A stretch of 64,000 bases of DNA from assembly GCF_900143215.1 (NCBI RefSeq), contig NZ_FRDM01000001.1, forward strand, positions 186,001-250,000, written 5' to 3'. This stretch comes from Geodermatophilus obscurus (GTDB taxonomy: Bacteria; Actinomycetota; Actinomycetes; Mycobacteriales; Geodermatophilaceae). The stretch's first letter is position 1. Every line of letters begins with the position of its first letter. This document shows, one piece after another, positions 13,372-31,944 of the stretch. Position numbers and translations under genes: made by a program. A model generated the notes under the pieces. That model did no database searches. It was not told where the DNA came from and was given only the letters and a program-made list of their open reading frames with translations.

Positions 13372-14256
13372 TCAGCCCTCGCGGACGCCCACCAGCGGCA
13401 GGGTGAAGGCGCCGGACTGGATGCCGGCGAGGTCCACGGCGAGGAACCGGAAGCCGGCCGCGCGCACCACCCGGATCGCCTGCTCGCGCAGGGGATCCGC
13501 GACGAGCGCGGGCAGGTCCTCGACCGCGACCTCGAGGCGGGCGACGTCCCCGTGGTGGCGGACCCGCAGGTCCCGGAGCCCGAGCCGCCGCAGCCCGGCC
13601 TCGGCCTGCTCCACCTGGGCGAGCTTCTCGGGTGAGACCTCGCTGTGGTGCGGGATCCGCGAGGCCAGGCACGGCGCCGCGGGCTTGTCCGCGCAGGGCA
13701 GGTCCAGCGCACGGGCGATCCGGCGCACCGCGGCCTTGTCCAGGCCGGCGTCGGCCAGCGGGCGCAGCACGGCGTGCGCGGTGGCCGCGCGCGCCCCGGG
13801 CCGGTCCGGTCGCCGGGCGTCGTCGGCGTTCTCCCCGTAGGCGACCGCGGTCAGGTCGTACCGGGACACGACGTCCTGGGAGATCCGCTCGAACAGCTCG
13901 TCCTTGCAGTGGAAGCAGCGGTCCGGGCCGTTGCGCCGGTAGTCGGGCCGGTCGCCCTCGAAGGTGGGGACCTCGACCACGGGCACCCCGACGTGCGCGG
14001 CGACCCGGTGGGCGGCCTCCCGCTCGTCGGACGCGAGGCTGGGGGAGACCCCGAGGAGGGCGAGCACCCGGTCGGGGCCGAGGGCCTCGGCGGCGAGGGC
14101 GAGCAGCACCGAGGAGTCGACGCCCCCGGAGAACGCGACGCCGAGCCGCGCCGTGCCGGTCAGCCCCTCCCGGAGGCCCTGGACCGCCCGGCGGTCCTCC
14201 GGCTGGAGTGCTGTCAGCGACACCTTGCCCACCCATCTCTCGTCCGTACCGATCAT
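13372..14256 (-). CDS. larE: LarE, ATP-dependent sacrificial sulfur transferase of nickel-pincer nucleotide synthesis
   Basis: A 294-residue PP-loop enzyme that adenylylates a pyridinium dicarboxylate nucleotide and delivers sulfur to make the dithio ligand of the NPN cofactor. The PP-loop SGGVDSS is at residues 43-49 (numbered from ATG 14256). Cysteines visible are C114 and C117 in RCFHCKDE, C188, and C196 in KPAAPCLASR; C196 aligns with the sacrificial Cys of Lactobacillus plantarum LarE. The extra CxxC suggests a cluster-assisted LarE type (inference). GTG 14223 is an alternative start; neither has a strong ribosome site. It is separated from larB/larC by about 15.7 kb of sugar-acid genes, but its presence completes the pathway. 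Confidence 0.9.
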   Translation of the reverse strand: MIGTDERWVGKVSLTALQPEDRRAVQGLREGLTGTARLGVAFSGGVDSSVLLALAAEALGPDRVLALLGVSPSLASDEREAAHRVAAHVGVPVVEVPTFEGDRPDYRRNGPDRCFHCKDELFERISQDVVSRYDLTAVAYGENADDARRPDRPGARAATAHAVLRPLADAGLDKAAVRRIARALDLPCADKPAAPCLASRIPHHSEVSPEKLAQVEQAEAGLRRLGLRDLRVRHHGDVARLEVAVEDLPALVADPLREQAIRVVRAAGFRFLAVDLAGIQSGAFTLPLVGVREG

Positions 14257-14507
14257 GGTGGCACCCGGCGGACCTCGTCGTACGCCGTGGGTCCGCAGCC
14301 GGCGACGTCGTCGAAGGGCGGCCGGTCCACCAGCTCGCCGCGGGCCGCCCGGACCGGACAGCCGGTTCCCGGCTGTCGGCCCACCGGGCCCAATGGTGTC
14401 GATCCGAGGGGTGGTGCGCCACGGGGGGAGCTCGAGCGCGGTGGCGTGGCGGGCGTCGACCCGACGCCCGCTACGCTCGACGCCCTCGTCGAGGGGAGTG
14501 CGGCAGC

Positions 14508-15329
14508 ATGGAAGGCGGACCGCCCCCGGGCGCTTCCCCACCGCCGAGTCGGGACGGAGCAGGCGTGGACCCCGCTCGCGCTGAGTTCGGCGGGCTGGTC
14601 GCCCTGGTGACCGGAGGAGCTTCTGGCATCGGCGCCGCCACCGTGGCCGAACTGCAGGCCCGCGGCGCGACCGTCTTCGCCCTCGACAGGACGGCCGGCC
14701 AGGCCCCGGACGACGTGCCCGTGCTGCTGGCCGACGTCACCGACACCGCGGCCGTCGAGGCTGCGGTCGAGGAGGTCGTCCGGCGTGCCGGCCGGCTCGA
14801 CGTGCTCGTGAACAACGCCGGCATCGGAGCGGTGGGCACGGTCGCCGACAACTCGCTCGAGGAGTGGCAGCGGACTCTCGACGTCAACGTCCTCGGCATC
14901 GTGCGGGTCACCCGGGCCGCGCTGCCGCACCTGCGCCGGTCACCGGCAGCGGCGATCGTCTCCACGTGTTCGGTCGCCGCGGAGATCGGGTTGCCGCTAC
15001 GGGCTCTGTACTCGGCGACCAAGGGAGCGGTGCTCTCGCTGACCCGGGCGATGGCCGCCGACCACCTCCGGGAGGGGATCCGCGTCTGCTGCGTCAATCC
15101 CGGAACCGCCGACACACCGTGGGTGGACCGGCTGCTCGCCCAGGCCGAGGACCCTGCCGCGGAGCGGGCGGCGCTGGAGGCGCGCCAGCCGTCGGGCCGG
15201 CTCGTCACCGCCGCTGAGGTCGCCGCCGCCATCGCCTTCCTGGCCAGCCCGGACTCCGGCGCGACCACCGGCACCGCGCTGACCGTCGACGGAGGGCTGA
15301 CCGGGCTGAGACTGCCGCCCCGGAGCTGA
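14508..15329 (+). CDS. Short-chain dehydrogenase/reductase at the edge of the sugar-acid locus
   Basis: A 273-residue classical SDR. A roughly 25-residue Pro/Gly-rich leader precedes the core; then come TGGASGIG (cofactor), LVNNAGIG, the catalytic Ser in VSTCSVAAE, and YSATK as the Tyr/Lys pair. The C-terminus GTALTVDGGLTG is typical of sugar/polyol-type SDRs. The substrate is unknown; position upstream of the regulator and dehydratase suggests a sugar or sugar-lactone oxidation (inference). ATG 14508 lies after a gaggggag stretch; GTG 14565 is a later alternative that would remove the leader. Confidence 0.85.
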   Translation: MEGGPPPGASPPPSRDGAGVDPARAEFGGLVALVTGGASGIGAATVAELQARGATVFALDRTAGQAPDDVPVLLADVTDTAAVEAAVEEVVRRAGRLDVLVNNAGIGAVGTVADNSLEEWQRTLDVNVLGIVRVTRAALPHLRRSPAAAIVSTCSVAAEIGLPLRALYSATKGAVLSLTRAMAADHLREGIRVCCVNPGTADTPWVDRLLAQAEDPAAERAALEARQPSGRLVTAAEVAAAIAFLASPDSGATTGTALTVDGGLTGLRLPPRS

Positions 15330-15763: not shown

Positions 15764-16543
15764 GTGACCCGGGCGGCATCTGTGACCATGCGACGTCGAC
15801 TGGCCGATGAGGTGGCGGGACAACTGCTCGCCATGGTCACCGATGGTGGTCACCCGCCGGGCAGCCGGCTGCCACCCGAGGCGGTGCTGGCCGAGCAGGC
15901 GCACGTCAGTCGACTGACCTTGCGCGAGGCCGTGCGGGTGCTGCGCGACAAGGGCGTCCTCAGCGTCGAGCACGGGCGCGGCACCTTCGTCAACCCACCC
16001 GCACGTTGGGTGGCGCTCGACCCCGCCCTGCTGCGCAGCCGCGCGGAGCTGGAAGGGGGCTCCGCCCGGTCGGCTCAGCAGATCACCGAGACCCGGCGCA
16101 TCGTCGAGGTCGGGGCCGTCGAGCTGGCAGCCCAGCGTCGAGGCGAAGCTGACCTGGTACGCCTCCGTTCCTGCATCGAGCGGATGCAGCACGCGCACGA
16201 GCGCGGTGACATCGTCGAGTTCTCGGTCGCCGACGTCGATTTCCACGACGGTCTGATGACCGCGGCGTGCAACCCCTACCTGGCCGCGCTCCTGCAGCCG
16301 ATCAAGGCGCTCGTCCAGGAGGTGCGCCTGCAGACCTCGATCGAGCCGGAGATGCGGCTGACCGCCGTTGCGGCGCACGTGGCGATCCTCGATGCGGTTG
16401 CCGCCGGCGACGAGGACGCAGCGTGCCGCAACATGACCGAGCACCTGGCCGAGACGCACCGGGTCATCGAGCGGCTCTGCGCCTCCGGTGGTCTCCCAGC
16501 GGGCCGCAGCGGCACACCCGACGCCGAGCAGGACGTCTCATGA
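15764..16543 (+). CDS. FadR-subfamily GntR regulator (FCD domain) 1
   Basis: A 259-residue regulator. The winged helix is N-terminal (LADEVAGQLLAMV, SRLTLREAVRVL, GRGTFV) and the FCD ligand domain follows, with the metal/ligand residues in VADVDFHDGLM, VAAHVAILDAV and MTEHLAETH. FCD regulators typically sense organic acids, often sugar acids. It precedes the dehydratase by 105 nt on the same strand and is probably co-transcribed. GTG 15764, GTG 15782 and ATG 15788 are all possible starts; no ribosome site distinguishes them, and leaderless expression is likely. Confidence 0.88.
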   Translation: MTRAASVTMRRRLADEVAGQLLAMVTDGGHPPGSRLPPEAVLAEQAHVSRLTLREAVRVLRDKGVLSVEHGRGTFVNPPARWVALDPALLRSRAELEGGSARSAQQITETRRIVEVGAVELAAQRRGEADLVRLRSCIERMQHAHERGDIVEFSVADVDFHDGLMTAACNPYLAALLQPIKALVQEVRLQTSIEPEMRLTAVAAHVAILDAVAAGDEDAACRNMTEHLAETHRVIERLCASGGLPAGRSGTPDAEQDVS

Positions 16544-16648
16544 GGGCCACCTGCCCCCATCCCGACCGCTGCGCCGGCCCGCCCGGCCCGCACGAGACGT
16601 TGATGCCTGCCGACACCCGACGGCACGCCGACCAGCACAGGAGTGACG

Positions 16649-18454
16649 GTGAACGCAGTTCGCAAGGATGAGGCCCGGACCCTCCGGAGCCAGCAGTGGT
16701 TCGACAACCCGCACAACCCGGGCATGACGGCCCTCTACATCGAGCGCTACATGAACTGGGGGCTCACCCGGGAGGAGCTGCAGTCCGGTAAGCCGATCAT
16801 CGGCATCGCCCAGACGGGGTCGGACCTGGCGCCCTGCAACCGGCACCACCTGGTCCTGGCCGAGCGGGTGCGGGAGGGCATCCGCGAGGCCGGCGGGATC
16901 GCCTTCGAGTTCCCGGTGCACCCGATCCAGGAGACGGGGAAGCGGCCGACCGCCTCGCTGGACCGGAACCTCGCCTACCTCGGGGTCGTGGAGGTGCTGT
17001 ACGGGTACCCGCTCGACGGGGTCGTGCTGACGACCGGCTGCGACAAGACGACGCCCGCCCTGCTGATGGCGGCCGCGACGGTGAACATCCCCTCGATCGT
17101 GCTCTCGGGCGGGCCCATGCTGAACGGGTGGTACCGCGGTGCCAGGACCGGATCGGGAACGATCGTGTGGCAGGCCCGCGAGATGCTCGCGGCCGGCGAG
17201 ATCGACGAGGCCAAGTTCGTCGAGCTGGTGGCCTCCTCGGCTCCCTCGCCGGGGCACTGCAACACGATGGGCACCGCCTCGACCATGAATGGGCTGGCCG
17301 AGGCCCTGGGCATGAGCCTGCCGGGGTCGGCCGCCATCCCGGCCGTGCACCGGGACCGTGCACGGGTGGCCTACCGGACCGGCCGGCGGATCGTCGAGAT
17401 GGTGCACGAGGACCTCAAGCCCTCCGACATCATGACCCGCGACGCGTTCGAGAACGCCATCGTCGTGAACTCCGCCATCGGCGGCTCCACCAATGCGCCG
17501 GTCCACCTCAACGCCGTGGCCAGGCACATGGGCGTCCCGCTGGAGGTGCAGGACTGGGAGACCCTGGGGCTGACCGTTCCCCTGTTGGTCAACCTGCAGC
17601 CCGCGGGGGTCTACCTCGGCGAGGAGTACCACCGGGCCGGTGGTGTTCCGGCAGTGGTGCACGAGCTCATGCGGCACGACCTCATCCACGAGGACGCGCT
17701 GACGGTCAACGGCCGGACGATCGGGGAGAACTGCCGGGACTCCGTCTCGGAGGATGCCGACGTCATCAGGAGCTTCGACGACGCGCTGCTGCCCGATGCC
17801 GGCTTCGTCGTGCTCGGTGGCAACCTCTTCGACAGTGCGATCATGAAGACCAGCGTCATCTCCGCGGAGTTCCGCGAGCGCTACCTGTCCGACCCCGAGC
17901 ACCCGAACTGCTTCGAAGGACGGGCCGTCGTCTTCGAGGGACCCGAGGACTACCACGCCCGCATCGACGACCCCGAGCTGGCCATCGACGACGGCTGCAT
18001 CCTGTTCATCCGTGGCGCCGGGCCGCTCGGCTACCCCGGGGCGGCGGAGGTGGTCAACATGCAGCCGCCCGCTGCCCTGATCAAGCAGGGCATCCACGCG
18101 CTCCCGTGCGTGGGGGACGGGCGGCAGTCGGGTACCTCGGGATCGCCGTCCATCCTGAACGCGTCGCCGGAGGCGGCGCTCGGCGGCGGGCTCGCCGTCC
18201 TGCGGACGGGTGACACCGTGCGGATCGACCTCAACCAGCGCAGGGCCGACGTCCTGCTCACCCAGGAGGAGCTGGGGGCGCGGATCCGGGCCCTCGCCGC
18301 CGAGGGCGGATTCCCCGTCCCCGCCTCGCAGACGCCCTGGCAGGAGATCCAGCGTTCCATGGTCGACCAGCTCTCCGAGGGCATGGTCCTCAAGCCGGCT
18401 GTCGCCTACCAGCGCATCGCACAGTCCATGGGCGTGCCCAGGGACAACCACTGA
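16649..18454 (+). CDS. IlvD/Edd family dehydratase (pentonate or aldonate dehydratase type)
   Basis: A 601-residue Fe-S dehydratase that removes water from 2,3-dihydroxy acids to give 2-keto-3-deoxy acids. The cluster cysteines are C63 (APCNRHH), C131 (TTGCDKT) and C204 (PGHCNTMG), with the probable carbamylated Lys at 133; the catalytic Ser lies in [10 protein letters not shown] near the C-terminus. The spacing matches L-arabinonate/D-xylonate dehydratases rather than the branched-chain enzyme IlvD, and the surrounding genes support a sugar-acid substrate. GTG 16649 is preferred because aggag (16639-16643) then has proper spacing. Confidence 0.88.
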
Positions 18455-18738
18455 CCCCTCCGGTCGCCCCGCGGGTCAGGTCGCTCATCCACGTCGGAAG
18501 GCGCCCGGCCCGTCTGCCCGACGGGTCCCGAGCCCGACGGGTGATCGCGCGCTGCCCGCCACTCCGACCTCTGCTGGCCGCCCTTCGCCGGCGTCGCGGC
18601 GCCGGTCGGGACGGTCACGGTTCCGTCACAGGAGCGCGTCCACACGCGGGCAGGGGCGGGGCCCTCCGGAGATCGTCCCGGGGAAAGCAGCCGGTGGTCA
18701 TTGACGGTCAGGTGCCCCGTTCCGCATGATCCCCATCA

Positions 18739-18747
18739 CATCTGATG
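18739..18747. promoter_or_regulatory. Candidate operator CATCTGATG upstream of the transporter
   Basis: A 9-nt palindrome (CATC-T-GATG) within a 17-nt TGATGA-rich stretch, 25 nt before the likely ATG 18772. The same 9-mer is at 28569-28577 and its CATCTGA core is at 21050-21056 on the other strand. It is probably bound by one of the two FCD regulators. Confidence 0.55.
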
Positions 18748-18771
18748 ACTGATGAGTTCGAGGGAGCGGAC

Positions 18772-20178
18772 ATGGCCGAAGCAGTGACCGGCGTCGACCG
18801 GGTGGACCCGTACACCTTGACGCCGGAGGGCATCAAGGAACCGCCGGTCGGTTGGAAGGCCAGCTTCAGGTACCTCGGCCCGGGGCTCATCCTCAGTGCG
18901 TCGATCGTGGGCTCCGGGGAGCTCATCGCCACCACGGCGCTCGGCGCCGAGGCCGGGTTCGTCCTCCTGTGGCTGGTCATCTTCAGCACGCTGGTGAAGG
19001 TGGCCGTCCAGGTCGAGCTGGCACGCTGGACCATCGCCACCGGGCAGCCGGCCATCACCGGCTACAACAAGGTGCCGCCGAAGATCGGCCGCCTCGGTTG
19101 GGTGAACGTCCTCTGGATGCTGCTCGCGCTGAGCAAGCTGCTGCAGCTCGGCGGCATCATCGGCGGCGTCGCGGTCGCCTTCAGCATCCTGTTCCCGTTC
19201 GGCGGCGACCCGCTGTCGTTCTCCCACCTGCTCGTGTGGACGATCGTGATCGCCGCCCTCAGCATCGCGATGCTCTACAAGAACAAGTACTCGCTCATCG
19301 AGCGCGGCGCGGTCTTCCTGGTCGTCGTCTTCTCCATCGTCACGGTGCTGATCGCGCTGGGGCTGCCGTTCACGCCGTTCGCCTACGGCGGCGACGACAT
19401 CGCCAGCGGCCTGACCTTCCTGATCCCGGCGGGGGCCCTGGGCGCGGCGATCGCCATGTTCGGCATCACCGGGGTGGGTGCCGACGAGATCACCTTCTAC
19501 ACCTACTGGTGCGTCGAGAAGGGCTACGCCCGCTGGGCCGGCCCCAACGACGGCAGCGAGGAGTGGGCGCGTCGGGCGAACGGGTGGATCAAGGTCATGT
19601 ACAAGGACGCCGCGGTGTCCTGGGTCGTCTACACCTTCGGCACGCTGGCCTTCTACCTGATGGGCGCCGCGGTGCTCAACCGGCAGGGGCTGGTCCCCGA
19701 GGGCAACGGGATGATCACCACGCTGTCGCGCATCTACACCGACACCCTGGGCGCGTGGTCGAGCGTCCTGTTCCTCATCGGTGCCATCGCGGTCCTGGGC
19801 TCGACGATGTGGGCCGCCATCCCGAGCTGGTCGCGCATGTACGTGAACCTGCTCGCCACCATGGGCGTGCTCGACTGGCAGGACCCGGTCGCACGGCTGC
19901 GCTGGATCCGGATCTTCACCGTGGCGCTGCCGATCATCTGGGCCGTGGCCTACCTGGCGATCCAGTCGCCGGTGCTCATGGTCCAGATCGGTGGGGTGAT
20001 GACCGGCATCTTCCTGGTCGCCGCCGTCATCGCCGTCTGGTACCTGCGGAAGACCGAGACCGATCAGCGGGTGTACGGCAGCACGCTGTTCAACGCAGCG
20101 CTCGTGGTGAGCAGCATCGCGATCGCGCTGCTCGGCATCTACACGCTGGCGAGCGTGTTCGGGTTCAGCCTGGCCTGA
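18772..20178 (+). CDS. Divergent Nramp-family transporter lacking the usual metal-site motifs
   Basis: A 468-residue polytopic membrane protein of the Nramp fold, with about eleven helices. Canonical Nramp metal transporters carry DPGN in helix 1 and MPH(N) in helix 6. Here the helix 1 position reads GSGE (residues 47-50, after LILSASIV) and the helix 6 region reads GVGADE (234-239). The metal-coordinating side chains are therefore changed, so import of Mn/Fe in the usual way is doubtful; another ion or an organic acid may be carried. ATG 18772 has an agggag site, whereas ATG 18745 would overlap the operator palindrome. It lies alone between the dehydratase and the second regulator. Confidence 0.82.
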   Translation: MAEAVTGVDRVDPYTLTPEGIKEPPVGWKASFRYLGPGLILSASIVGSGELIATTALGAEAGFVLLWLVIFSTLVKVAVQVELARWTIATGQPAITGYNKVPPKIGRLGWVNVLWMLLALSKLLQLGGIIGGVAVAFSILFPFGGDPLSFSHLLVWTIVIAALSIAMLYKNKYSLIERGAVFLVVVFSIVTVLIALGLPFTPFAYGGDDIASGLTFLIPAGALGAAIAMFGITGVGADEITFYTYWCVEKGYARWAGPNDGSEEWARRANGWIKVMYKDAAVSWVVYTFGTLAFYLMGAAVLNRQGLVPEGNGMITTLSRIYTDTLGAWSSVLFLIGAIAVLGSTMWAAIPSWSRMYVNLLATMGVLDWQDPVARLRWIRIFTVALPIIWAVAYLAIQSPVLMVQIGGVMTGIFLVAAVIAVWYLRKTETDQRVYGSTLFNAALVVSSIAIALLGIYTLASVFGFSLA

Positions 20179-20254
20179 GCCGTCGTCCTGCGCCAGCGGG
20201 GGAGGTCGCCGCGCGCGGCCGCCCCCGCTGCACGCGTCGGTGGCGCGGCCCCGG

Positions 20255-20992
20255 TCAGTCCGGAGGCGCGGTCGTGACGGCCTCGCTGCCGAGGTGGCGT
20301 TCGATGTCCTCCTCGGTCTGCAGCAGGTGCGCCCGCATCGCGCTCCCCGCCGCTCCGGCGTCCCCGGCGGTGACGGCCGCCAGGATCGCGGCGTGGTGCT
20401 CCAGTGCGTGGCCGACGATCTCGGGGACCGAGGACGTCTCCCGGCGCAGGCTCCGCAGCACGGAGGCGAGCGGCTCGAAGAGCGCCTCGAGGAACACGTT
20501 GTCCGCTGCGTCGAACAGCAGTCCGTGGAACGCGAGATCGGCCTCCGCCACGGCCGGGACGTCGCCCGCCCCGTGGGCCCGCACCATGTCGTCGTGCACC
20601 GCCGTGAGCCGCTCGACCTGGGACGGCTGACGACGCTGCGCGGCCAGCTCCGCGATGGCCACCTCGACGGCACGACGCGCCTCGAGGAGCCGCATCGGCA
20701 GCAGCAGCGGATCCGGGTGCAGCCGACTGCGGGCGACCAGGAGCCGCCCGTCCAGCGGCGACCATTCCTCCGGGGCGTTCACGGTGCTGGAACGGCCCTG
20801 CTGCACTCGGATGACCCGGGTGGGCGCCAGTGACCGGATCGCCTCGCGCACGGTCAGGCGGCTGACACCGAAGCGGGCGGCCAGCTCGGCCTCGCTGGGC
20901 AGGGTGCCGCCGACCGGGAACGTGCCGTCGAGGACGAGTTCGAGCAACTGGTCGGCCACCGTGTCGGCACGGCCGGGACGCATGGCACCCAC
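20255..20992 (-). CDS. FadR-subfamily GntR regulator (FCD domain) 2
   Basis: A 245-residue regulator with a winged helix (TVADQLLELVLDG, GVSRLTVREAIRSL) and an FCD domain whose likely metal/ligand residues are in ADLAFHGLLFDA, LEHHAAILAAV and MRAHLLQTE. It is divergent from the kinase-dehydrogenase operon, and the 95-nt gap holds a direct repeat resembling its likely operator. It is related in layout to the regulator at 15764 but clearly distinct in sequence. GTG 20992 or ATG 20983 could be the start. Confidence 0.88.
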   Translation of the reverse strand: MGAMRPGRADTVADQLLELVLDGTFPVGGTLPSEAELAARFGVSRLTVREAIRSLAPTRVIRVQQGRSSTVNAPEEWSPLDGRLLVARSRLHPDPLLLPMRLLEARRAVEVAIAELAAQRRQPSQVERLTAVHDDMVRAHGAGDVPAVAEADLAFHGLLFDAADNVFLEALFEPLASVLRSLRRETSSVPEIVGHALEHHAAILAAVTAGDAGAAGSAMRAHLLQTEEDIERHLGSEAVTTAPPD

Positions 20993-21045
20993 GGTACAAG
21001 GAAGGCAGGTGCGGGCCCTTGACGCACCGGCGCGACGATGGCGAG

Positions 21046-21063
21046 CATGTCAGATGTCAGATA
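21046..21063. promoter_or_regulatory. Candidate operator: 7-nt direct repeat TGTCAGA
   Basis: The sequence catgtcagatgtcagata contains TGTCAGA twice with a 7-nt period, and on the other strand contains CATCTGACATG. It lies between the divergent regulator (starts 20992) and kinase (starts 21088) and shares the CATCTGA core with 18739 and 28569. Confidence 0.55.
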
Positions 21064-21087
21064 CCCGTGACGTCACGGAGGCATCGG

Positions 21088-22536: not shown

Positions 22537-22578
22537 ACGACACGCACGGACCACGAGACGACGAAGGAGCGGGTGGGC

Positions 22579-23478: not shown

Positions 23479-23490
23479 CTCCTCAGGGCG

Positions 23491-25026
23491 TCACATCACC
23501 GCGCCGAGCTGCCACGGGACGAACTCCTCCTGGCCGAAGCCGAGCTCCTCGCTGAGCGTCTTGCGGCCCGAGGCGGTGTCCAGGACGAGCTGGAACAACC
23601 GCTGGCCGACCTCCTGCACGGTCGCCTCGCCGTCCATGATCACGCCGCAGTTGAGGTCCATGTCCTCGGACATCCGCTGGTACATCTCGGTGTTGGTCGC
23701 CAGCTTGAGGCTGGGTGTCGGCTTGCAGCCGAGGACCGAGCCGCGGCCGGTGGTGAAGCACATGACGGTGGCGCCGCCCGCGACGATGCCGGTGACCGAG
23801 ACCGGGTCGTACCCGGGGGTGTCCATGAAGGTGAAGCCCTTGGCGGTGACCTTCTCGGCGTAGCGGTAGACACCGGTGAGGTTCGTCGTCCCGCCCTTGG
23901 CCACCGCACCCAGCGACTTCTCGAGGATGGTGGTCAGCCCACCGGCCTTGTTGCCGGGGGAGGGGTTGTTGTCCATGGAGCCGCCGTTGTCGGCGGTGTA
24001 CTTCTCCCACCACTTGATCAGTTCGACCAGCTCGTCGCCGACCTCTCGGCTGACCGCGCGCCGGGTCAGCAGGTGCTCGGCGCCGTAGATCTCCGGCGTC
24101 TCGCCGAGGACGGCGGTTCCGCCGTGGCGCACCAGCAGGTCCACCGCGGCACCCAGGGCGGGGTTGGCGGTGATGCCCGAGTACGCGTCCGAGCCACCGC
24201 AGTTCAGCCCCAGGATCAGCTCGCTGGCCGGGACGGTGGTGCGGGTCACCTGGTTCACCACCGGCAGCATGTCCCGGATGGCGGCCACCCCGGCCCGGAC
24301 GGTGGCGGCGGTGCCGCCCTGCTCCTGGATGGTCATGGTCTGGACCAGCTTGGTGCTGTCGAGCTGCCACTTCTCCGCGAGGCTCGCGACCTGGTTGACC
24401 TCGCAGCCGAGCCCGAGCATCAGGAACCCGGCGAAGTTGGGGTGCTCGGCGTAGCCGGTGAGCGTGCGCTGGAGGACGTCGAAGCCCTCTCCGGAACTGG
24501 CCATCCCGCACCCGGCACCGTGCGCCAGGGCGACGACCCCGTCGACGTTCGGGAACTCGTCCAGCAGCCCCGGCGAGCGGAACTGGTCGGCGATCAGCTT
24601 GGCCGTGGTCGCCGAGCAGTTCACCGAGGTCAGGATGCCGATGTAGTTGCGGGTGGCGACCTTGCCGTCGGCTCGCACGATCCCCTGGAAGGTCGCGCGC
24701 TCGACCTCGGGGACCATCTCGGTGGGGACGACGTCCGCGCCGACGGCGTGGTCGCGCTCGAAGGCCCGGAACTCGACGTTGTGGGTGTGCACGTGGTCGC
24801 CCGGCTCGATGGGCACGGTGGCGAACCCGATGATCTGGTTGTACTTGCGGACGGCCTCCTGCGTGGCGATCGGCGCGACCGCCACCTTGTGGCCACGGGG
24901 AACCGCCGTGCGCACCGTGACGCCGCCGGCGGCCGCGCCCTCCTCCAGGTCGCGCGAGGCCACGACCACGTTGTCGGACGGGTGCAGGTGCACGCCGAGC
25001 TGATCGAAGGCCGTTGCCGTGGTCAT
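23491..25026 (-). CDS. UxaA-family hydro-lyase (altronate/galactarate dehydratase type), fused SAF and catalytic domains
   Basis: A 511-residue dehydratase. The N-terminal roughly 90 residues form the SAF domain (LHPSDNVVVASRDLEEG, EPGDHVHTHN); the rest is the UxaA/GarD C-terminal domain with GYRR-type region RADGKVATRNYIGI, VALAHGAGCGM, LGLNCGGSDAYSGITANPALG and NPSPGNKAGGLTTI. UxaA and GarD remove water from altronate or galactarate in an iron-dependent way; in some bacteria the two domains are separate chains, here one. It is the last gene of the minus-strand operon. ATG 25026 is the likely start; its 40-nt upstream gap contains a single TCTGATG half-site. Confidence 0.88.
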   Translation of the reverse strand: MTTATAFDQLGVHLHPSDNVVVASRDLEEGAAAGGVTVRTAVPRGHKVAVAPIATQEAVRKYNQIIGFATVPIEPGDHVHTHNVEFRAFERDHAVGADVVPTEMVPEVERATFQGIVRADGKVATRNYIGILTSVNCSATTAKLIADQFRSPGLLDEFPNVDGVVALAHGAGCGMASSGEGFDVLQRTLTGYAEHPNFAGFLMLGLGCEVNQVASLAEKWQLDSTKLVQTMTIQEQGGTAATVRAGVAAIRDMLPVVNQVTRTTVPASELILGLNCGGSDAYSGITANPALGAAVDLLVRHGGTAVLGETPEIYGAEHLLTRRAVSREVGDELVELIKWWEKYTADNGGSMDNNPSPGNKAGGLTTILEKSLGAVAKGGTTNLTGVYRYAEKVTAKGFTFMDTPGYDPVSVTGIVAGGATVMCFTTGRGSVLGCKPTPSLKLATNTEMYQRMSEDMDLNCGVIMDGEATVQEVGQRLFQLVLDTASGRKTLSEELGFGQEEFVPWQLGAVM

Positions 25027-25066
25027 CGCTTCTTCTCCGGTTCTGATGGGTGTCGGTCGGTCCGTG

Positions 25067-26383
25067 TCACCAGGGCTCCAGCTGCCCGCCGCTGTCGAAC
25101 CGCATCGGGACCGGATCGCCGGTGATCTCCAGTCGCGGCTCGGCCAGCACCTGGTCGCGGAGGGTCTCCGACACCAGGAGGTTCTCCAGGTCGAGGGTGT
25201 TGCGCATGCGCACGAGCGAGATCCCGGTGGGATCGGCCCGGCCGCAGGTCAGGATGGCCGCGGCCACCGCGCTCCGGTCGGTGGCCATGGCCATGGGCAC
25301 CTGCGCGCGCTGTGGACCGCCCAGTCCCGCCGTCATCGCGTTGATGTAGGTGATCCGCAGGTCGACCTTCTCGAGGATGCGGAACGGGATGAAGTCGGCC
25401 AGACCGAGGCCGACCACGTTGCCGTGCGAGACGTCGGTGACGTCGAGGACGGCGATGTTCGTGATCCGCGGGCGGTCGAACTCCGGGGTTCCCCGGATCA
25501 TCATCCGGCCGATCACATTGGGGTCCATGCCCGAGCCGGACAGGTCCTTCCCCATGAGGTCGACCACCGCCACGTCGACCCGGTCGAAGGGCAGGGTGGC
25601 CATCAGGTTCTTCGCCTCGGCGAGCAGCCGGGCCTCACCGTCGCCGGCGATGTCCTGCGGCCCCAGCAGCGCGATCTGCGCCGCACGGTCGTAGGCGTTC
25701 TCGACGATGCCCAGGCCACCCAGGACCTTGCCCGTCTCGACGATCCGTCGGGCCACCCGGGGGATCCAGACCCCGAGGTTCGCCGGGCCGTAGGCGTGGA
25801 TGCCCTCGGCGCCCCGCCGCTTGCCCAGGCCGATCGCGATGATCTTGGCGATCCCGCTCTCGATCTCGCCCTTGAAGTCGGTGTGCGCCTTGATGCGGTT
25901 GACCGCGAGGACGGCGTCGGCCTTGGCCGCATGGGCGTCCAGGTGCACGGCCGGGCCGCCGGGCAGCCGGTCGATCTCGACGGTCTCCATCGTCGCGCGG
26001 ATCGGCATGCCGAGGACATCCTCGGTCATGCCGAGGTCGGCGAGCATCTGCACCTGACCCTCGGCGGTGGCGCCCCCGTGCGAGCCCATGGCCGGGACGA
26101 CGAACGGCTCGGCCCCCACCGAGCGCAGCCATTCCCCGGCGGTGCGCACCACGGTGGCCTTGTCGTGGATGCCCCGGCTGCCGGCGGTGAGGGCCACGCT
26201 CATGCCTGGCCGCAGCCGGGACCGGAGCGGTTCGAGCGCCGACGTGGTGGCTGCCGCCACGTCAGCGAGCTGCGGTGCGTCGAAGTTCTGCCGCACGGGG
26301 ATCAGCCGCGGGAAGGGTGCCTCGAAGTCGAGGCTGCGCAGGGCCTCGAACGGGCCGAGGCCTCCGCTGCCGTGGTCGGTCAT
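25067..26383 (-). CDS. LarA-superfamily nickel-pincer enzyme, putative aldonate racemase/epimerase
   Basis: A 438-residue protein of the LarA superfamily, distinct from the larA-like gene at 28568. Motifs are TAGSRGIHDK (65-75), GSHGGATAEGQ with H102, RIKAHTDF with H167, SGIAK with K180 and GAEGIH with H196. The steps H102-H167 (65), H167-K180 (13) and H167-H196 (29) resemble H108, H174, K184 and H200 of L. plantarum LarA with one 3-residue insertion, so NPN binding is plausible. Known superfamily members racemise or epimerise 2-hydroxy acids, including D-gluconate 2-epimerase. ATG 26383 has a cgggag site. It lies between pdxA-like and uxaA-like genes, which suggests a sugar-acid substrate (inference). 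Confidence 0.8.
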   Translation of the reverse strand: MTDHGSGGLGPFEALRSLDFEAPFPRLIPVRQNFDAPQLADVAAATTSALEPLRSRLRPGMSVALTAGSRGIHDKATVVRTAGEWLRSVGAEPFVVPAMGSHGGATAEGQVQMLADLGMTEDVLGMPIRATMETVEIDRLPGGPAVHLDAHAAKADAVLAVNRIKAHTDFKGEIESGIAKIIAIGLGKRRGAEGIHAYGPANLGVWIPRVARRIVETGKVLGGLGIVENAYDRAAQIALLGPQDIAGDGEARLLAEAKNLMATLPFDRVDVAVVDLMGKDLSGSGMDPNVIGRMMIRGTPEFDRPRITNIAVLDVTDVSHGNVVGLGLADFIPFRILEKVDLRITYINAMTAGLGGPQRAQVPMAMATDRSAVAAAILTCGRADPTGISLVRMRNTLDLENLLVSETLRDQVLAEPRLEITGDPVPMRFDSGGQLEPW

Positions 26384-26416
26384 GGTGTCTCCCGAGCTGT
26401 CGTCAGTCCCGGCGGG

Positions 26417-27412
26417 TCACGAGCGGGCGTCGGTGCGGGCGCGGGCCATGGCCGCACCCACGAGGATGGCTTCCACGAGGCTGTCGTGGCTGGCGCGTCC
26501 GGTGCCGGCGATGTCGAACGCCGTGCCGTGGTCCACGCTGGTCCGGACGATGGGCAGGCCGATGGTGGCGTTGACGCCGGTCTCGAACCCGAGGACCTTC
26601 ACCGCGATGTGGCCCTGGTCGTGGAACATCGCGATCGCGACGTCGAAGTCACCGGCGACGGCCCGGCCGAACAGCGTGTCCGCCGGCCAGGGGCCGGTCG
26701 CGTCGACCCCCTCGGCCCTGGCCTGCTCGATGGCGGGCGCGATGACGCGGGCTTCCTCGTCGCCGAACAGGCCGCCCTCCCCGGCGTGCGGGTTCAGGCC
26801 GGCGACCCCGACGGTCGGCGATTCGATGCCCATGTCGCGCAGGGCGCGGTCGGCCAGCCGGATCGTCGTCAGTACCCGTTCGGTGGTGACCCGATCGAGC
26901 ATCTCGCGGATGCCGACGTGCGTCGTCACGTGGACGACCCGCAGCTTCAGCGCGGTCAGCATCATCGCGAAGTCCCGGGTCCCGGTGAGGTCGGCGAGGA
27001 TCTCGGTGTGGCCGGGGTAGGGATGCCCGGCGAGGGCGATCGCCTCCTTGTTCAGCGGCGCGGTGACGATCCCGTCGATGTCGCCGGCCAGAGCCAGCTC
27101 CACCGCCCGGGCGACACCGTCGAAGGCGATCTTCCCTGCCTCGGCCGACAGCACGCCCACGGGCACCGGGGTGTCGGACGGCACCGTGATCACGTCCAGG
27201 GTGCCGGGCTCGAACCGGGCCGCCCGCGGGTGCGCGACCTCGTTGAGCGCGGGTGCGTCAGGGACCACCGCGCCGGCGGCCCGCAGGGCGGCCACGCTGC
27301 CGATCGCGACGACTCTCGCCTCGCTCGCGCGGGGGTCGCGTGCGGCCTTGAGCGTGATCTCGGGGCCGATGCCGGCCGGGTCGCCGACGGTCAGGCCGAG
27401 CAGGGGTGTCAT
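26417..27412 (-). CDS. PdxA2-like 4-phospho-tetronate dehydrogenase (decarboxylating)
   Basis: A 331-residue member of the PdxA family. The N-terminus MTPLLGLTVGDPAGIGPEI is diagnostic, and the metal ligands are the His residues in YPGHTEIL, LNPHAGEGGLFG and MFHDQGHIAVK. PdxA proper makes a pyridoxal precursor; PdxA2 proteins next to DUF1537 kinases oxidise and decarboxylate D-threonate or D-erythronate 4-phosphate to dihydroxyacetone phosphate. The context here clearly favours PdxA2. ATG 27412 overlaps the TGA of the kinase gene (ATGA), which implies translational coupling of kinase and dehydrogenase. Confidence 0.88.
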   Translation of the reverse strand: MTPLLGLTVGDPAGIGPEITLKAARDPRASEARVVAIGSVAALRAAGAVVPDAPALNEVAHPRAARFEPGTLDVITVPSDTPVPVGVLSAEAGKIAFDGVARAVELALAGDIDGIVTAPLNKEAIALAGHPYPGHTEILADLTGTRDFAMMLTALKLRVVHVTTHVGIREMLDRVTTERVLTTIRLADRALRDMGIESPTVGVAGLNPHAGEGGLFGDEEARVIAPAIEQARAEGVDATGPWPADTLFGRAVAGDFDVAIAMFHDQGHIAVKVLGFETGVNATIGLPIVRTSVDHGTAFDIAGTGRASHDSLVEAILVGAAMARARTDARS

Positions 27413-28512
27413 GCGCACTCCTCGAGCGCCTCGGCGGCTCGGCACAGCGCATCCGGTGCACCGAAACCGCCCGACTTGGTGACCACGGGGATCCGGCGGT
27501 CACCGGTGAACAGTTCACCGAGGGGCAGGCCCTCGGTGACTTCCGCCAGGAGACGCAACTCGGTGGCTCCGAGTGCGGTCGCCACGGCCAGCGCCGTCGC
27601 GCCGCCGGTCAGCACGAGTCCGGCTGACGGGGCGCCGTCCAGGACCGCCGCCACGACGCGGGCAAGTCGCTCCGCGAGTGCCGCGGCCTGCGGGCTGTCG
27701 GCCGGCACGTCGACGACGACCGCGCTGGTCAGCAGGACCCGCCGTCCGTCGCGCAGGGCGCTCACGGCGTCCTCGACCGGCCAGGGGGTGGAGTCGTCGA
27801 CCACCAACCGGTCGGCGCCCGTCGCCAGGAGCGGCGCCACCTGGGCCTTGGTGGTGGGGTGGTCGGTCCCGACGACGAGCAGCACGCCGCCGACCGGGGT
27901 CGCGAGGAACCGGCGCGCGGCCGGCGTCGTGATCAGGACCTCGGCGAGCGCGCGGGCCAGGCCTCCCGAACCCGCCGCGACGGCGCCGTCGGCCAGGATG
28001 CGGCGGGCGATCTGCACCAGATCGCCGTGGGTCTGCGCATCCACCGCCCGGACGCCGGGTGGGAAGTGCCCGCCGATGTCCGTGACCGTCGCCTCGCCAT
28101 GGACCCGGAGCGCCCCGTCGTGGACGGTCCGGCCTTGCGCCGGGAACGCCGGCGTGGCCACGGCGTTCCGGGTGCCCCACGCGTCCAGCGCCACGGACAC
28201 GTCGGCGCGCACCCGGCCGCGCAGGGTCGAGTCGATCTTCAGGAACAGCAGGTCGGGCCCCCATGCCCGCACGCGCTCGACGGCCTCCCGCATCCGGTCC
28301 GCGGCCTCCTCGGGAGGGCGCCAGCGGTTGTCGGTGACCAGCGCGAGCACGTCGACGGCGCCCGGCGTGGCGGCGGTCAGGGCGACGGAGACCTCGAGGC
28401 CGCGGACGGCGAACGGCGCGGCCGCGTCAGCGGCGCCGGTCAGGTCGTCGGCGAGGACGGCGAGACGCCCAGACCCGGCAGCGACAGGAGGCACTGGTCC
28501 GCTGACCTCCAT
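27409..28512 (-). CDS. DUF1537 acid-sugar kinase 2
   Basis: A 367-residue kinase of the DUF1537 family, shorter than kinase 1. The N-terminal motif is LAVLADDLTGAADAAAPFA, followed by LFLKIDSTLRGRVRADV; the C-terminal nucleotide-binding part has LVLTGGATALAVATALG and VVTKSGGFG. It should phosphorylate a tetronate for the coupled PdxA2-like enzyme. ATG 28512 is preferred; a TTG at 28563 would run through the operator at 28569. It is transcribed after larA across a 55-nt gap and overlaps the next gene by 4 nt. Confidence 0.86.
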   Translation of the reverse strand: MEVSGPVPPVAAGSGRLAVLADDLTGAADAAAPFAVRGLEVSVALTAATPGAVDVLALVTDNRWRPPEEAADRMREAVERVRAWGPDLLFLKIDSTLRGRVRADVSVALDAWGTRNAVATPAFPAQGRTVHDGALRVHGEATVTDIGGHFPPGVRAVDAQTHGDLVQIARRILADGAVAAGSGGLARALAEVLITTPAARRFLATPVGGVLLVVGTDHPTTKAQVAPLLATGADRLVVDDSTPWPVEDAVSALRDGRRVLLTSAVVVDVPADSPQAAALAERLARVVAAVLDGAPSAGLVLTGGATALAVATALGATELRLLAEVTEGLPLGELFTGDRRIPVVTKSGGFGAPDALCRAAEALEECA

Positions 28513-28567
28513 CGGCAGACTTCGGGTGCCACGAGGGTATGGACCGGCGGCGCCCGTCGTCAAGAAC

Positions 28568-29863
28568 TCATCTGATGTCAGCGAAGTTGTCGGCGCTGAC
28601 GTACGGGATGGTCTGCGGCCCCTCGGGCAGGACGCACACCCGGGCGTCGGGCCCCGCCGCGCCGAGCAGCTCCCGGACCGTGGCCCCGATGTCGTGGGTC
28701 TGCTCCAGGTGGGCCGCCTCGAGCGCGTGGTCGGCGAGGTAGGAGGTGTGCATGATCACCCGCGCCCGGCTCTGGATCTTCGCCTGCACCTGCACCTGCC
28801 ACTGGTCGGGCACCGTCTTCGGCCGGCTCTCGATGAGGTCGAGCAGGGCCTGGGGGGATTCCGCGGACTCGAGCACCTCGCGGTAGGAGCCGTGGTTCGG
28901 GAACCCGTCCCGGCACTCCGCCGCGCAGATGATCGCGCCGCCGTCCCTGACCACCGTGGCCGCCGCGGAGATGCCCTTCACCGCCTGGTACAGGTTCTGG
29001 TCCAGCGGGAAGCCGGAGTTGGTCGTGACCACCACGTCGAAGGGCTCCGGCACCGGGGCCATCGCCAGCTCCCGCGCGGCCTCGCGAGCCGCGGCGTGCA
29101 TGGCGAACAGCTCCCCGGCGAACGCGCCCACCACCTGCTGGTCCCGGTTGAGGGTGACGTCGAAGCCGAAGTGCACGCCACCGACCGCGGCGACGACCGC
29201 GCGGATGTCGTCGTGGACCGGGTTGCCCTCGCAGACGCCCCACACGGCCTGGGGGGAGCCGATGCGCTCGGCGTCGTGCAGGGTCAGCACGGTCTCCAGG
29301 CCGGCCAGCCCCGGGACGGCGAGCTTGGGGCCCCCGCTGAACCCGGCGAAGAAGTGCGGCTCGACGAACCCCGTGGTGATCCGGACGTCGGCCTCGACCC
29401 AGTGCCGGTCGAGCCAGACGGGCACGCCGTTGCCGTGGGTGCCCATCCAGACCAGGGACGCCTCGTCGCGCGCGTCGTGGTTGAGGACGTGCACCCGGTC
29501 GACGACGTCGTCGCCGAGCATGCTGCGGAGCTCGGCCTCGGTGTTGCCGCGGTGCGTGCCCGTCGCCACCAGGATCACCACGTCGTCCAGGCCGACGATC
29601 CCGTCGAGCTCCTCGAGCACCGCCGGGACCATGAGGTCCCGCGGCTGGGCGCGGGTGCCGTCGCAGACCGAGATGGCCACCTTCTGCCCCGGTCGCACGA
29701 ACTCGCGCAGCGGGGGCCCGGCCACCGGTGCGCGCAGGGCCGACCGCAGGACCGCGGCCGGGTCCTCCGCGCCGGGCACGTAGCGGGGCTCGACGACCGT
29801 CGTCCGGTCGTCCGGCAGGTCGACGGTCAGACCCCGCTCGCCGTAGGCCAGTTGCACCTTCAT
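28568..29863 (-). CDS. larA: LarA family nickel-pincer nucleotide-dependent racemase/epimerase
   Basis: A 431-residue LarA homologue. All active-site positions are present with exactly the spacing of L. plantarum LarA: D68 and R71 (CDGTR), H104 (GTHRGN), H170 (EPHFFAGF), K180 (GGPKLAVPG) and H196 (TLHDAERIG), each four lower than the D72/R75/H108/H174/K184/H200 reference. This argues for a functional NPN enzyme that moves a hydride at C2 of a 2-hydroxy acid. Since the operon continues into tetronate kinase, PdxA2 and UxaA genes, the substrate is more likely a sugar acid than lactate. It is divergent from larB/larC (124-nt gap). ATG 29863 is the start. Confidence 0.88.
   Translation of the reverse strand: MKVQLAYGERGLTVDLPDDRTTVVEPRYVPGAEDPAAVLRSALRAPVAGPPLREFVRPGQKVAISVCDGTRAQPRDLMVPAVLEELDGIVGLDDVVILVATGTHRGNTEAELRSMLGDDVVDRVHVLNHDARDEASLVWMGTHGNGVPVWLDRHWVEADVRITTGFVEPHFFAGFSGGPKLAVPGLAGLETVLTLHDAERIGSPQAVWGVCEGNPVHDDIRAVVAAVGGVHFGFDVTLNRDQQVVGAFAGELFAMHAAAREAARELAMAPVPEPFDVVVTTNSGFPLDQNLYQAVKGISAAATVVRDGGAIICAAECRDGFPNHGSYREVLESAESPQALLDLIESRPKTVPDQWQVQVQAKIQSRARVIMHTSYLADHALEAAHLEQTHDIGATVRELLGAAGPDARVCVLPEGPQTIPYVSADNFADIR
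28569..28581. promoter_or_regulatory. Candidate operator CATCTGATG-TCAG at the larA/kinase 2 junction
   Basis: The palindrome CATCTGATG followed by TCAG overlaps the larA stop codon and lies 57 nt upstream of the kinase 2 start on the minus strand. It matches the 9-mer at 18739. It may control an internal promoter for the kinase-pdxA-LarA homologue-uxaA genes. Confidence 0.5.
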
Positions 29864-29881
29864 CCGATCACCCGTCCTGCG

Positions 29882-29906
29882 GTCCGGTCGTTCAGCCTGA
29901 TCGGAC
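29882..29906. promoter_or_regulatory. Inverted repeat in the larA/larB divergent promoter region
   Basis: Arms gtccggtc (29882-29889) and gatcggac (29899-29906) are complementary with one mismatch around a 9-nt spacer, 19 nt upstream of the larA start. It differs from the CATCTGA sites and may be an operator for another regulator. Confidence 0.4.
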
Positions 29907-29986
29907 CCTAGCCGCGCCCGCCGGTCCCGGCGCCGGGGAGCGACCTGCGCCGCCCCGCTGTGGGCAGCCGGTCGCTGCCGTGCAGG

Positions 29987-30706
29987 ATGCCCGCTGTGGA
30001 CGGCGAGGAACGCGACCCGGGGTACGTCGACCTCGGCTTCGCGCGGGTGGACACCGACCGGCTGTCCCGCACCGGGGACCCGGAGGTGGTCTACGCCGCC
30101 GGGAAGACCCCGGACGAGGTCGTCGCCATCGTCGGGACGCTCCGCGGGGCGGCTCCGCACCGGCCGGCCCTCGTCACCCGGGCGGACCCGGCGACGGTGG
30201 CGGCGGTGCGGCTGCGGTGGCCCGAGGCCCGGGTGGAGGCGACGACGGTGGTCGTCGGGGACCTGCCCCCGGCCCGGGGCCTGGTCGCGGTGGTCACGGC
30301 CGGGACGTCGGACTCGCCGGTGGCGGCGGAGGCGGCGACCACGGTGCGGGTCTTCGGCGCCGACGTCGTCCGGGTGGTCGACGTCGGGGTCGCCGGACTG
30401 CACCGCGTGCTCGACGCCCGGCCGGTGCTCCGGGACGCCGACATCGTGATCGTGGTGGCCGGTATGGAGGGCGCGCTGCCCAGCGTCATCGGCGGGCTGG
30501 TCGGCACACCGGTGGTGGCCGTGCCGACCAGCGTCGGCTACGGAGCCAGCTTCGGCGGTCTGTCCGCGCTGCTGGGGATGCTCAACTCCTGCGCCGCGGG
30601 TGTGGTCGTCTGCAACATCGACAACGGGTTCGGCGCCGGGGTGTTCGCCGCGCGGATCGCCCGGAGCATCCACGCCGGCGGCTCCCGCGTCGTGGACCCG
30701 CGGTGA
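29987..30706 (+). CDS. larB: LarB, nicotinate adenine dinucleotide carboxylase/hydrolase of NPN synthesis
   Basis: A 239-residue enzyme that carboxylates and hydrolyses nicotinic acid adenine dinucleotide to give pyridinium-3,5-biscarboxylic acid mononucleotide, the first NPN step. The PurE-like C-terminal half has VTAGTSDSPVAAEA, VAGMEGALPSVIGGLV and VVCNIDNGFGAG, with the substrate-binding Cys at 209. The N-terminal region PEVVYAAGKTPDE is typical. ATG 29987 is used; GTG 29960 or 29996 are possible. The stop overlaps the larC start (GTGA, 30703-30706), so larB and larC are coupled. Confidence 0.92.
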   Translation: MPAVDGEERDPGYVDLGFARVDTDRLSRTGDPEVVYAAGKTPDEVVAIVGTLRGAAPHRPALVTRADPATVAAVRLRWPEARVEATTVVVGDLPPARGLVAVVTAGTSDSPVAAEAATTVRVFGADVVRVVDVGVAGLHRVLDARPVLRDADIVIVVAGMEGALPSVIGGLVGTPVVAVPTSVGYGASFGGLSALLGMLNSCAAGVVVCNIDNGFGAGVFAARIARSIHAGGSRVVDPR

Positions 30707-31944
30707 CCCGGGTCGGGTGGCTGGACCTCGGCAACGGCGTGGCCGGCGACATGCTGCTGGGCGCCGTGGTGGGCGCGGGCGTGCCGCTCGCCGGCATCGT
30801 GGCGGCACTGGAACCCCTGCAGCTGCCCATCACGCTGCGCGCCGAGGACGTGCGGCGCGGCGGGCTGCGGGCGGTCCGGGTGGTGGTGGACGCCCCGGAG
30901 GAGGGCCAGCCCGCGCGCCGCTGGTCCGACGTCCGCCGGCTGCTCGGCCGGCTCCCTGAACCCCTGCGCTCGTCGGCGGTCGAGGTGTTCGGCGTGCTCG
31001 CGCGGGCGGAGGCGGCGGTGCACGGCGGAGCCGAGGAGGACGTGCACTTCCACGAGGTGGGCGCGCTGGACGCCGTCGCCGACGTCGTCGGGGTCTGCGC
31101 CGGGATGGCCGCCCTGCGCCTGGACCGGTTGGTGGCGTCTCCCATCGCACTCGGCGGGGGGACGGCGCGGACGGCGCACGGGACGATCCCGGTCCCCGGA
31201 CCGGCCGTGCTGGCCCTGCTGGAGGCGGCGGGGGCGCCCGGGCGGGGCGGCCCCGACGAGGTGGAGCTGGCCACGCCGACCGGGGTCGCGCTCGCCACCA
31301 CGCTGGCGACCGGCTTCGGCCCGATGCCGGCGCTGCGCCCGACGGCCACCGGCACCGGCGCCGGCACCCGGGACCCGGCAGACCGGCCCAACGTGGTGCG
31401 CCTGGTCGTGGGCGAGGTCGAGGCGGAGGAGGAGGAGGAGGAGGCGCCGGTCCCGTCCGCCACCTCCGCCGGTCTCGACACGACGGCGGCGGTGGTCCTC
31501 GAGGCCAACGTCGACGACCTCGACCCGCGCGCCTGGCCGCTGGTCCTCGCCGCCCTGCTGGACGCGGGCGCCCTCGACGCCTGGCTGACCCCCGTGCTCA
31601 TGAAGAAGGGCCGGCCGGCCCACGTCGTCGCGGCGCTCGCCGGTCCGGCCGGGGTGGCCCGGGTCCGGGACGTCCTGCTCCGCGAGACCACGACCCTCGG
31701 CGTGCGCGAGACGACCGTCGTCCGGCACGCCGTCCGGCGCACGTTCGACACGGTCCATGTCGACGGTCACCCGGTCGCGGTCAAGCTCGGGTGGGCGGCC
31801 GACGGCTCGGTGGTCAACGCCATGCCCGAGTGGGAGGACGTCGCCCGGGCCGCCGTCGCGCTCGGTCGGCCGGTCAAGCAGGTGCTGGCGCAGGCCGTCG
31901 GGCTTGCCGAGGCGCTCCGGGCCGGTCCTCCGGGACGGGACTGA
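30703..31944 (+). CDS. larC: LarC, CTP-dependent nickel insertase of NPN synthesis
   Basis: A 413-residue protein that inserts nickel into the dithio pyridinium nucleotide using CTP. The N-terminal LarC1 part has WLDLGNGVAGDMLLGA, a His-rich VHFHEVGALDAVADVVG and HGTIPVPGPAVLALL; the C-terminal LarC2 part has LEANVDDLDPRAWPLVL and LMKKGRPAHVVAAL. In L. plantarum the two parts are joined by programmed frameshifting; here one uninterrupted frame encodes both, linked by a Glu-rich stretch (residues 242-247 are consecutive Glu). The GTG start overlaps the larB stop. Confidence 0.92.
   Translation: MTRVGWLDLGNGVAGDMLLGAVVGAGVPLAGIVAALEPLQLPITLRAEDVRRGGLRAVRVVVDAPEEGQPARRWSDVRRLLGRLPEPLRSSAVEVFGVLARAEAAVHGGAEEDVHFHEVGALDAVADVVGVCAGMAALRLDRLVASPIALGGGTARTAHGTIPVPGPAVLALLEAAGAPGRGGPDEVELATPTGVALATTLATGFGPMPALRPTATGTGAGTRDPADRPNVVRLVVGEVEAEEEEEEAPVPSATSAGLDTTAAVVLEANVDDLDPRAWPLVLAALLDAGALDAWLTPVLMKKGRPAHVVAALAGPAGVARVRDVLLRETTTLGVRETTVVRHAVRRTFDTVHVDGHPVAVKLGWAADGSVVNAMPEWEDVARAAVALGRPVKQVLAQAVGLAEALRAGPPGRD
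31426..31443 (+). repeat. In-frame GAG microsatellite inside larC
   Basis: Six consecutive GAG codons encode a Glu run at the linker between the LarC1 and LarC2 parts. Length change by slippage would keep the frame, so it would only alter linker length. Confidence 0.8.

Follow-up and report, generated by a model that had tools for sequence, protein, structure and literature searches.

A putative sugar-acid catabolic locus of Geodermatophilus obscurus with genes for the nickel-pincer nucleotide and a candidate C2 epimerase

Introduction

Synthesis of the nickel-pincer nucleotide (NPN) is the established role of the LarB, LarE and LarC families. In tetronate catabolism, a DUF1537 kinase phosphorylates the acid, and PdxA2 oxidises and decarboxylates the product to dihydroxyacetone phosphate; a D-threonate route made up of DtnK and PdxA2 was reportedly described by Zhang in 2016. 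Here we analysed a Geodermatophilus obscurus locus in which both sets of genes lie together, at positions 13372–31944 of a 64,000-nucleotide stretch of contig NZ_FRDM01000001.1 (positions 186,001 to 250,000; the window), with particular attention to its LarA-superfamily gene larA22. On balance, we lean towards reading this locus as a sugar-acid catabolic island that makes its NPN locally, in which LarA22 feeds a DUF1537 kinase (DUF1537b) and a PdxA2-like dehydrogenase.

The window pair DUF1537b and PdxA resembles the kinase and the D-threonate 4-phosphate dehydrogenase of the D-threonate route, but it falls below the specific cut-offs and is accompanied by an NPN enzyme and dehydratases. The L-threonate route LtnD-OtnI-OtnK-OtnC, as given in the accessible text of PMC12540250, is similar in that the window also has an LtnD-like gene beside a DUF1537 kinase gene (DUF1537a). 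However, DUF1537a is very divergent, and neither OtnI nor OtnC was seen among the Pfam matches of the scanned window open reading frames (ORFs), a set smaller than all ORFs of the window or the genome.

Among LarA homologues, a close described precedent is GntE, an NPN-dependent D-gluconate 2-epimerase (groups 19 and 20) and thus a sugar-acid C2 epimerase (accessible text of PMC7583248). The GntE signature is E, V, A, H (PMC11770544, accessible text), whereas LarA22 has H-T-D-F and belongs to a different group. Group 22 is already known as the public model NF052515, and no reported substrate for it was found in the literature text covered. C2 epimerisation of 4-deoxy-threonate and 4-deoxy-erythronate has been reported, with only 4-deoxy acids named in the part of PMC11770544 that was covered. 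The original prediction that no tetronate route with an NPN enzyme had been described agreed with our literature search, which found none in a body of text containing few subscription papers and no supplements (Table S1 of the 2020 survey, PMC7583248, lay outside it). Many LarA-superfamily groups lack a known substrate, and the triad of DUF1537, PdxA and group 22 gives a short list of assayable substrates for one of them. If the proposal is true, nickel enters four-carbon sugar-acid catabolism.

Results

LarA22 and its proposed reaction

Window ORFs were annotated with Pfam and NCBIfam profiles, and bit scores were compared with the curated cut-offs. As predicted, the locus encodes two different LarA-superfamily enzymes, LarA1 of the lactate-racemase group (NF033504) and LarA22 of group 22 (NF052515), each over its cut-off. 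LarA22 scored 20.9 against Pfam Lar_N, under the gathering score of 23.3, and its predicted model (predicted local distance difference test score, pLDDT, 90.1) shows the LarA fold. For comparison, we fetched 40 stretches from the same phylum, the best 80 of at least 589 confirmed relatives (named loci) and 15 more, and annotated them with iterated profiles. Removal of short pieces and identical proteins left 129 group-22 proteins, a non-random sample in which one family, f19 (by inference Rubrobacter), is over-represented. The two catalytic histidines and the NPN-binding Arg, Lys and His residues (R70, H102, H167, K180 and H196 in LarA22) were kept in all 129. The identification of LarA22 as an NPN-type enzyme is thus supported by sequence and model.

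In the mechanism that we propose, LarB, LarE and LarC would produce NPN. LarA22, with NPN bound, would use H102 and H167 in a hydride transfer that inverts a short aldonate at C2, as its fold and residues suggest. The resulting epimer would be phosphorylated by DUF1537b and then oxidised and decarboxylated by the PdxA2-like enzyme to dihydroxyacetone phosphate. The most economical pair would be the C2 epimers D-erythronate and D-threonate. Longer aldonates, or further stereoisomers, would be turned into 2-keto-3-deoxy acids by UxaA and IlvD/Edd, and LarA1 would be a lactate/glycerate-type racemase using the same cofactor. Taken step by step, LarA22 probably does epimerise a sugar acid at C2, dihydroxyacetone phosphate as the product is close to an even call, and a tetronate as the substrate of the window enzyme is possible but somewhat doubtful.

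Recurrence of the DUF1537-PdxA-group 22 triad

Within 5 kb of the 129 group-22 genes, PdxA was found in 25 cases, DUF1537 in 26 and both in 24. UxaA or IlvD lay within the same distance of 19 of the 129, and PdxA together with a dehydratase in only two, the window and locus L071. A sample of 396 genomes of the phylum held PdxA in 42 genomes, group 22 in 46 (weak matches left out) and both in 27. The PdxA start lay 0.9–6.9 kb from a group-22 gene in 24 genomes, namely that of the window and each of the 23 f19 genomes with PdxA, and the association of PdxA with group 22 gave Fisher's p = 4e-19 with relatives counted as independent. Beyond the phylum, Ruminiclostridium cellobioparum (L102), further Clostridia or Bacillota, a Prolixibacteraceae metagenome-assembled genome (MAG) and one additional bacterium have PdxA and DUF1537 near group 22. 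Around the R. cellobioparum gene, neither UxaA nor IlvD was found within 5 kb. This recurrence of the triad supports a nickel enzyme feeding the DUF1537/PdxA2 route.

The residue D169, adjacent to H167, was present in 25/25 PdxA-linked group-22 proteins, 5/17 dehydratase-linked proteins and 31/87 others. This distribution is compatible with a shared substrate but is not proof of one.

Other arrangements were also seen. In the Bacilli loci L111, L118, L128, L139 and L149, a group-22 gene clusters with a short-chain dehydrogenase (SDR), LarE, LarB and LarC genes, and no PdxA. In a Bacillota MAG (L088:4255-8318), UxaA stands between a group-22 gene and a further LarA-type gene, and in one f19 genome (L066:8621-14601) the triad has LutB-like and LutA-like (CCG) genes as neighbours.

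Phylogeny and alternative substrates

In a FastTree tree of 129 rows, a single set of 27 rows (support 97) took in 23 of the 25 PdxA-linked proteins. The window LarA22 paired with that of L071 (100), and a 5-row set (97) added L161 and two Kribbella sequences, whose genes adjoin UxaA or IlvD. An IQ-TREE tree of 61 rows agreed, with 93 for the PdxA-linked set and 94 for window, L071 and L161, neither of them starred. The L071 locus, from an Actinomycetales MAG, encodes a LarA22 81% identical to that of the window and has the row SDR, DUF1537b, PdxA, LarA22, UxaA, SDR, with LtnD and DUF1537a on the opposite strand. Its seven best-matching genes are 71–88% identical to window genes, and the SDR preceding DUF1537b is 72% identical to the window SDR. 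An enolase-superfamily fragment lies upstream of the row.

Several observations weigh against the proposed reading. Placement of the window LarA22 within the PdxA-linked clade was rejected at a cost of 116 log-likelihood units (approximately unbiased, AU, test, p = 0.0013; the groups were picked after the first tree had been seen). Its closest relatives after L071, namely L161, L072 and L073, adjoin UxaA or IlvD. Neither PdxA nor DUF1537 lies within 5 kb of 102 of the 129 group-22 genes, 18 of the 42 phylum-sample genomes with PdxA show no adjacency to group 22, and LarB over cut-off was not found in 2 of 12 group-22 genomes. Both partners score under the D-threonate-specific cut-offs, DUF1537b with 157.3 of 450 bits (NF047819) and PdxA with 364.7 of 583 (NF002891). 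DUF1537b also lacks an estimated 55–60 residues of the sugar-binding domain, as does its L071 counterpart (L071:1361-2455); both proteins retain the residues that are invariant in a 7-row alignment. Finally, M295 of LarA22 aligns with K298 of LarA, in a variable column within a gappy stretch of the profile alignment, and the accessible text of the 2020 survey says that groups without K298 may not invert a stereocentre (PMC7583248).

This last point bears on the reaction itself. The same survey flags K298 loss in LarA groups of unknown function (PMC7583248, accessible text), and because the K298-aligned position is not lysine, our confidence in C2 epimerisation is lowered. LarA22 might instead use NPN for some other hydride-mediated reaction, such as a sugar-acid redox isomerisation, as the absence of lysine from the aligned column and the option raised by the survey for groups lacking catalytic residues (PMC7583248, accessible text) would allow. 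We consider this improbable, however, with both catalytic histidines kept in 129/129 proteins and the profile alignment gappy near K298. R293 (122/129 group-22 proteins) and K279 (129/129) lie near that column, and either might replace K298.

The phylogeny bears on the substrate. Apart from L071, its nearest relatives have sugar-acid dehydratases as neighbours, so the window LarA22 could act on a longer aldonate and may retain an older, dehydratase-type substrate. In that case, UxaA or IlvD/Edd would receive the C2 epimer of a pentonate, hexonate or aldarate from LarA22, and DUF1537b and PdxA would process a second acid drawn from the same food. Members of the window's clade are linked to dehydratases (UxaA in L161; IlvD in L072, L073, L162 and L163), the group-22 gene of L163 also adjoins an enolase-superfamily sugar-acid dehydratase, and uxaA immediately follows larA22 in both the window and L071. 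Yet in both loci the probable operon that contains larA22 has pdxA and DUF1537b ahead of it, and the triad recurs in another clade, where neither UxaA nor IlvD lies within 5 kb. We regard this alternative as a real but minority possibility.

Since the window LarA22 falls outside the PdxA-linked clade, the link to the kinase and PdxA appears to have been made separately in the window lineage, so that the association with group 22 probably arose at least twice; a functional link is favoured for that reason. The original prediction, that a nickel epimerase feeds an aldonate or tetronate route, thus held in part. An NPN-type enzyme does lie in a probable operon with DUF1537, PdxA and dehydratase genes, and the triad recurs across phyla; a tetronate is only a possible substrate, LarA22 lies outside the PdxA-linked clade, and its column for K298 has no lysine.

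Layout of the locus

All the predicted genes, namely larE, larB and larC, two LarA-type genes, the sugar-acid genes and two FadR-type regulator genes, were found within the 18.6 kb (Table 1). The SDR and Nramp-like transporter genes, both overlooked earlier, were added to this list. Several of the listed ORFs run too long, and starts were re-read for larE, the first LarA-type gene, larB and larC. The low-coordinate part carries the SDR, FadR-type regulator 1, IlvD/Edd and Nramp-like genes on the plus strand, with larE on the minus strand. FadR-type regulator 2 (minus) follows, then DUF1537a and the LtnD-like gene (plus). The closely spaced minus-strand run larA1, DUF1537b, pdxA, larA22, uxaA is a probable operon, from which larB and larC diverge on the plus strand.

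Table 1. Features of the locus, in window coordinates
Feature	Position	Strand	Basis
larE, sulfur insertion, CXXC-C type	13372..14256 (start probable)	-	TIGR00268, 265.6 bits (cut-off 150)
Short-chain dehydrogenase (SDR)	14566..15329 (start approximate)	+	Pfam adh_short; NCBIfam
FadR-type (GntR/FCD) regulator 1	15764..16543	+	Pfam
IlvD/Edd sugar-acid dehydratase	16643..18454	+	Pfam; best PDB 7m3k (galactonate dehydratase), 5oyn
Nramp-like transporter	18745..20178	+	PF01566; NF037982, 97.2 bits (cut-off 50)
FadR-type (GntR/FCD) regulator 2	20255..20992	-	Pfam
DUF1537a, divergent kinase	21019..22536 (true start perhaps near 21088)	+	Pfam; NF047819, 57.4 bits (cut-off 450)
LtnD-like dehydrogenase	22573..23451	+	NF043037, 275.7 bits (cut-off 350)
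UxaA/galactarate-dehydratase-like	23491..25026	-	Pfam; TIGR03248, 394.4 bits (cut-off 730.85); best PDB 6u7l
larA22, NPN isomerase group 22, candidate sugar-acid C2 epimerase	25067..26383	-	NF052515, 478.1 bits (cut-off 400)
PdxA2-like dehydrogenase	26417..27412	-	PF04166; TIGR00557, 373.6 bits (cut-off 290.35)
DUF1537b, D-threonate-kinase-like, shortened	27412..28563	-	SBD_N and NBD_C; NF047819, 157.3 bits (cut-off 450)
larA1, lactate-racemase-group LarA	28568..29863	-	NF033504, 541.6 bits (cut-off 460); alignment
Divergent intergenic region, larA1/larB	29864..29986	.	Sequence
larB, NPN biosynthesis	29987..30706 (start approximate)	+	NF033503, 253.6 bits (cut-off 175)
larC, nickel insertion	30712..31944 (start approximate)	+	TIGR00299, 180.7 bits (cut-off 90); NF052512, 126.7 bits (cut-off 50)

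The best Protein Data Bank (PDB) matches of the PdxA2-like dehydrogenase were 2hi1 and 6e85, and a PDB search with DUF1537a gave no match. In the organism's own genome (G000; 5,238,583 bases, 112 contigs), the sole matches over cut-off to group 22, NF033504, PdxA, LarE and LarB all sit in the locus, as do two of the three DUF1537 matches; larC was left out of this genome-wide search. Because the only copies of these five sit here, the grouping is more than chance.

Cofactor genes and LarA1

All three NPN biosynthesis genes pass the curated cut-offs, and larC is a single uninterrupted frame holding both LarC1 and LarC2. The LarE translation has the SGGVDS loop, a CXXC (CFHC) and a later Cys, which is the CXXC-C pattern found in most, though not all, homologues of the [4Fe-4S] type; this arrangement is linked to a [4Fe-4S] cluster and not to sacrificial sulfur transfer (accessible text of PMC9283937). 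A LarB-like paralogue lies outside the locus (G000:C56:31683-32276, L176; 140.3 bits against the cut-off of 175). Such paralogues (140–158 bits) also occur in the genus-mates G446, G470 and G526, even where LarE is not over cut-off.

LarA1 has FF following the catalytic His (EPHFF) and a later WQ (DQWQ), which fits the F, F, W, E/Q signature positions of lactate racemases (PMC11770544, accessible text). In cut-off and in its F, F, W, Q residues, it is like lactate racemase LarA and its broad-spectrum relatives (5huq, 9eid); it differs in residing in a sugar-acid operon. In five more genomes from this family, the fetched 20 kb around LarA1 holds no further lar gene, and LarA1 therefore need not belong to sugar-acid catabolism. 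It is absent from the 10.6-kb contig of L071, where an SDR occupies its place (that genome has its LarE and LarB/LarC pieces on different contigs), and LarA1 was not supported as a conserved operon member. A sugar-acid role is thus not supported for LarA1, a lactate-racemase-group protein missing from the L071 operon.

These observations raise the alternative of two unrelated neighbours, in which larB, larC and larE would serve a lactate/glycerate racemase and the sugar-acid cassette would need no NPN. Occurrence of LarA1 without group 22 in other genera of the family, its absence from the L071 operon and the rarity of group 22 in the order (4 of 150 genomes, the window's included) all fit such a division. 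It is nevertheless very improbable, as one product of the cassette is a LarA-superfamily enzyme that has NPN-binding residues, and LarE and LarB are almost always present in the group-22 genomes tested. None of the three sampled genus-mates has group 22: LarE and LarB were not over cut-off in G446 and G526, and G470 has both, with a DUF1537-PdxA pair.

The Nramp-like transporter

The Nramp-like protein has neither the DPGN nor the MPH string and carries GSGE in transmembrane segment 1, unlike canonical NRAMP proteins as judged by these motifs. It shares the lack of both strings with Nramp-related groups that, according to the accessible text of PMC12873925, are uncharacterised apart from two, one related group including a hypothesised Mn importer; it differs from these in its sugar-acid locus. 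Close homologues (75–78% identity) were found in 7 other genomes of the 396, all f19. Their neighbours are UxaA and FadR in three and purine-catabolism genes in two; argininosuccinate synthase neighbours one, and a second by gene layout only. Distant relatives occur in 11 of the 25 other fetched stretches holding group 22, PdxA and DUF1537. GSGE is present in 10 of these 11, for which the motif region was aligned; the shorter L064 frame is unaligned, and L165 repeats the L055 gene. A metal-importer reading is weakened by the missing motifs and by the homologue contexts, and we propose the protein as a candidate sugar-acid carrier from its sequence and surroundings. An organic-acid role for Nramp-related transporters without metal-binding motifs is thereby possible.

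In its widest form, the proposal would be that group 22 includes a tetronate C2-epimerase dependent on nickel, which opens both D-erythronate and D-threonate to a single DUF1537 kinase/PdxA2 pair, that the link was made at least twice (in the multi-phylum clade and in the window lineage), and that motif-less Nramp-fold carriers import the acid. We consider this combination, taken as a whole, rather unlikely.

Regulatory-site searches and flanking genes

Two candidate sites for a shared regulator, TGGTNNNACCA and TNGTNNNACNA, were rejected, as the count of each was no commoner than chance. TCAGATG had three matches in the window (18739, 21050 and 28569), all in the cluster, with 3.89 expected in the window, and the palindrome pattern had a single match, outside the cluster, with 0.38 expected. 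Inverted repeats are present near gene starts.

Immediately outside the cluster, at 12347–13321, Pfam identified a sigma-70-type factor with a C-terminal SnoaL-like domain. The window also contains three amidase-signature genes (PF01425) at 82–1206, 33251–34933 and 34884–36959, two of which are adjacent.

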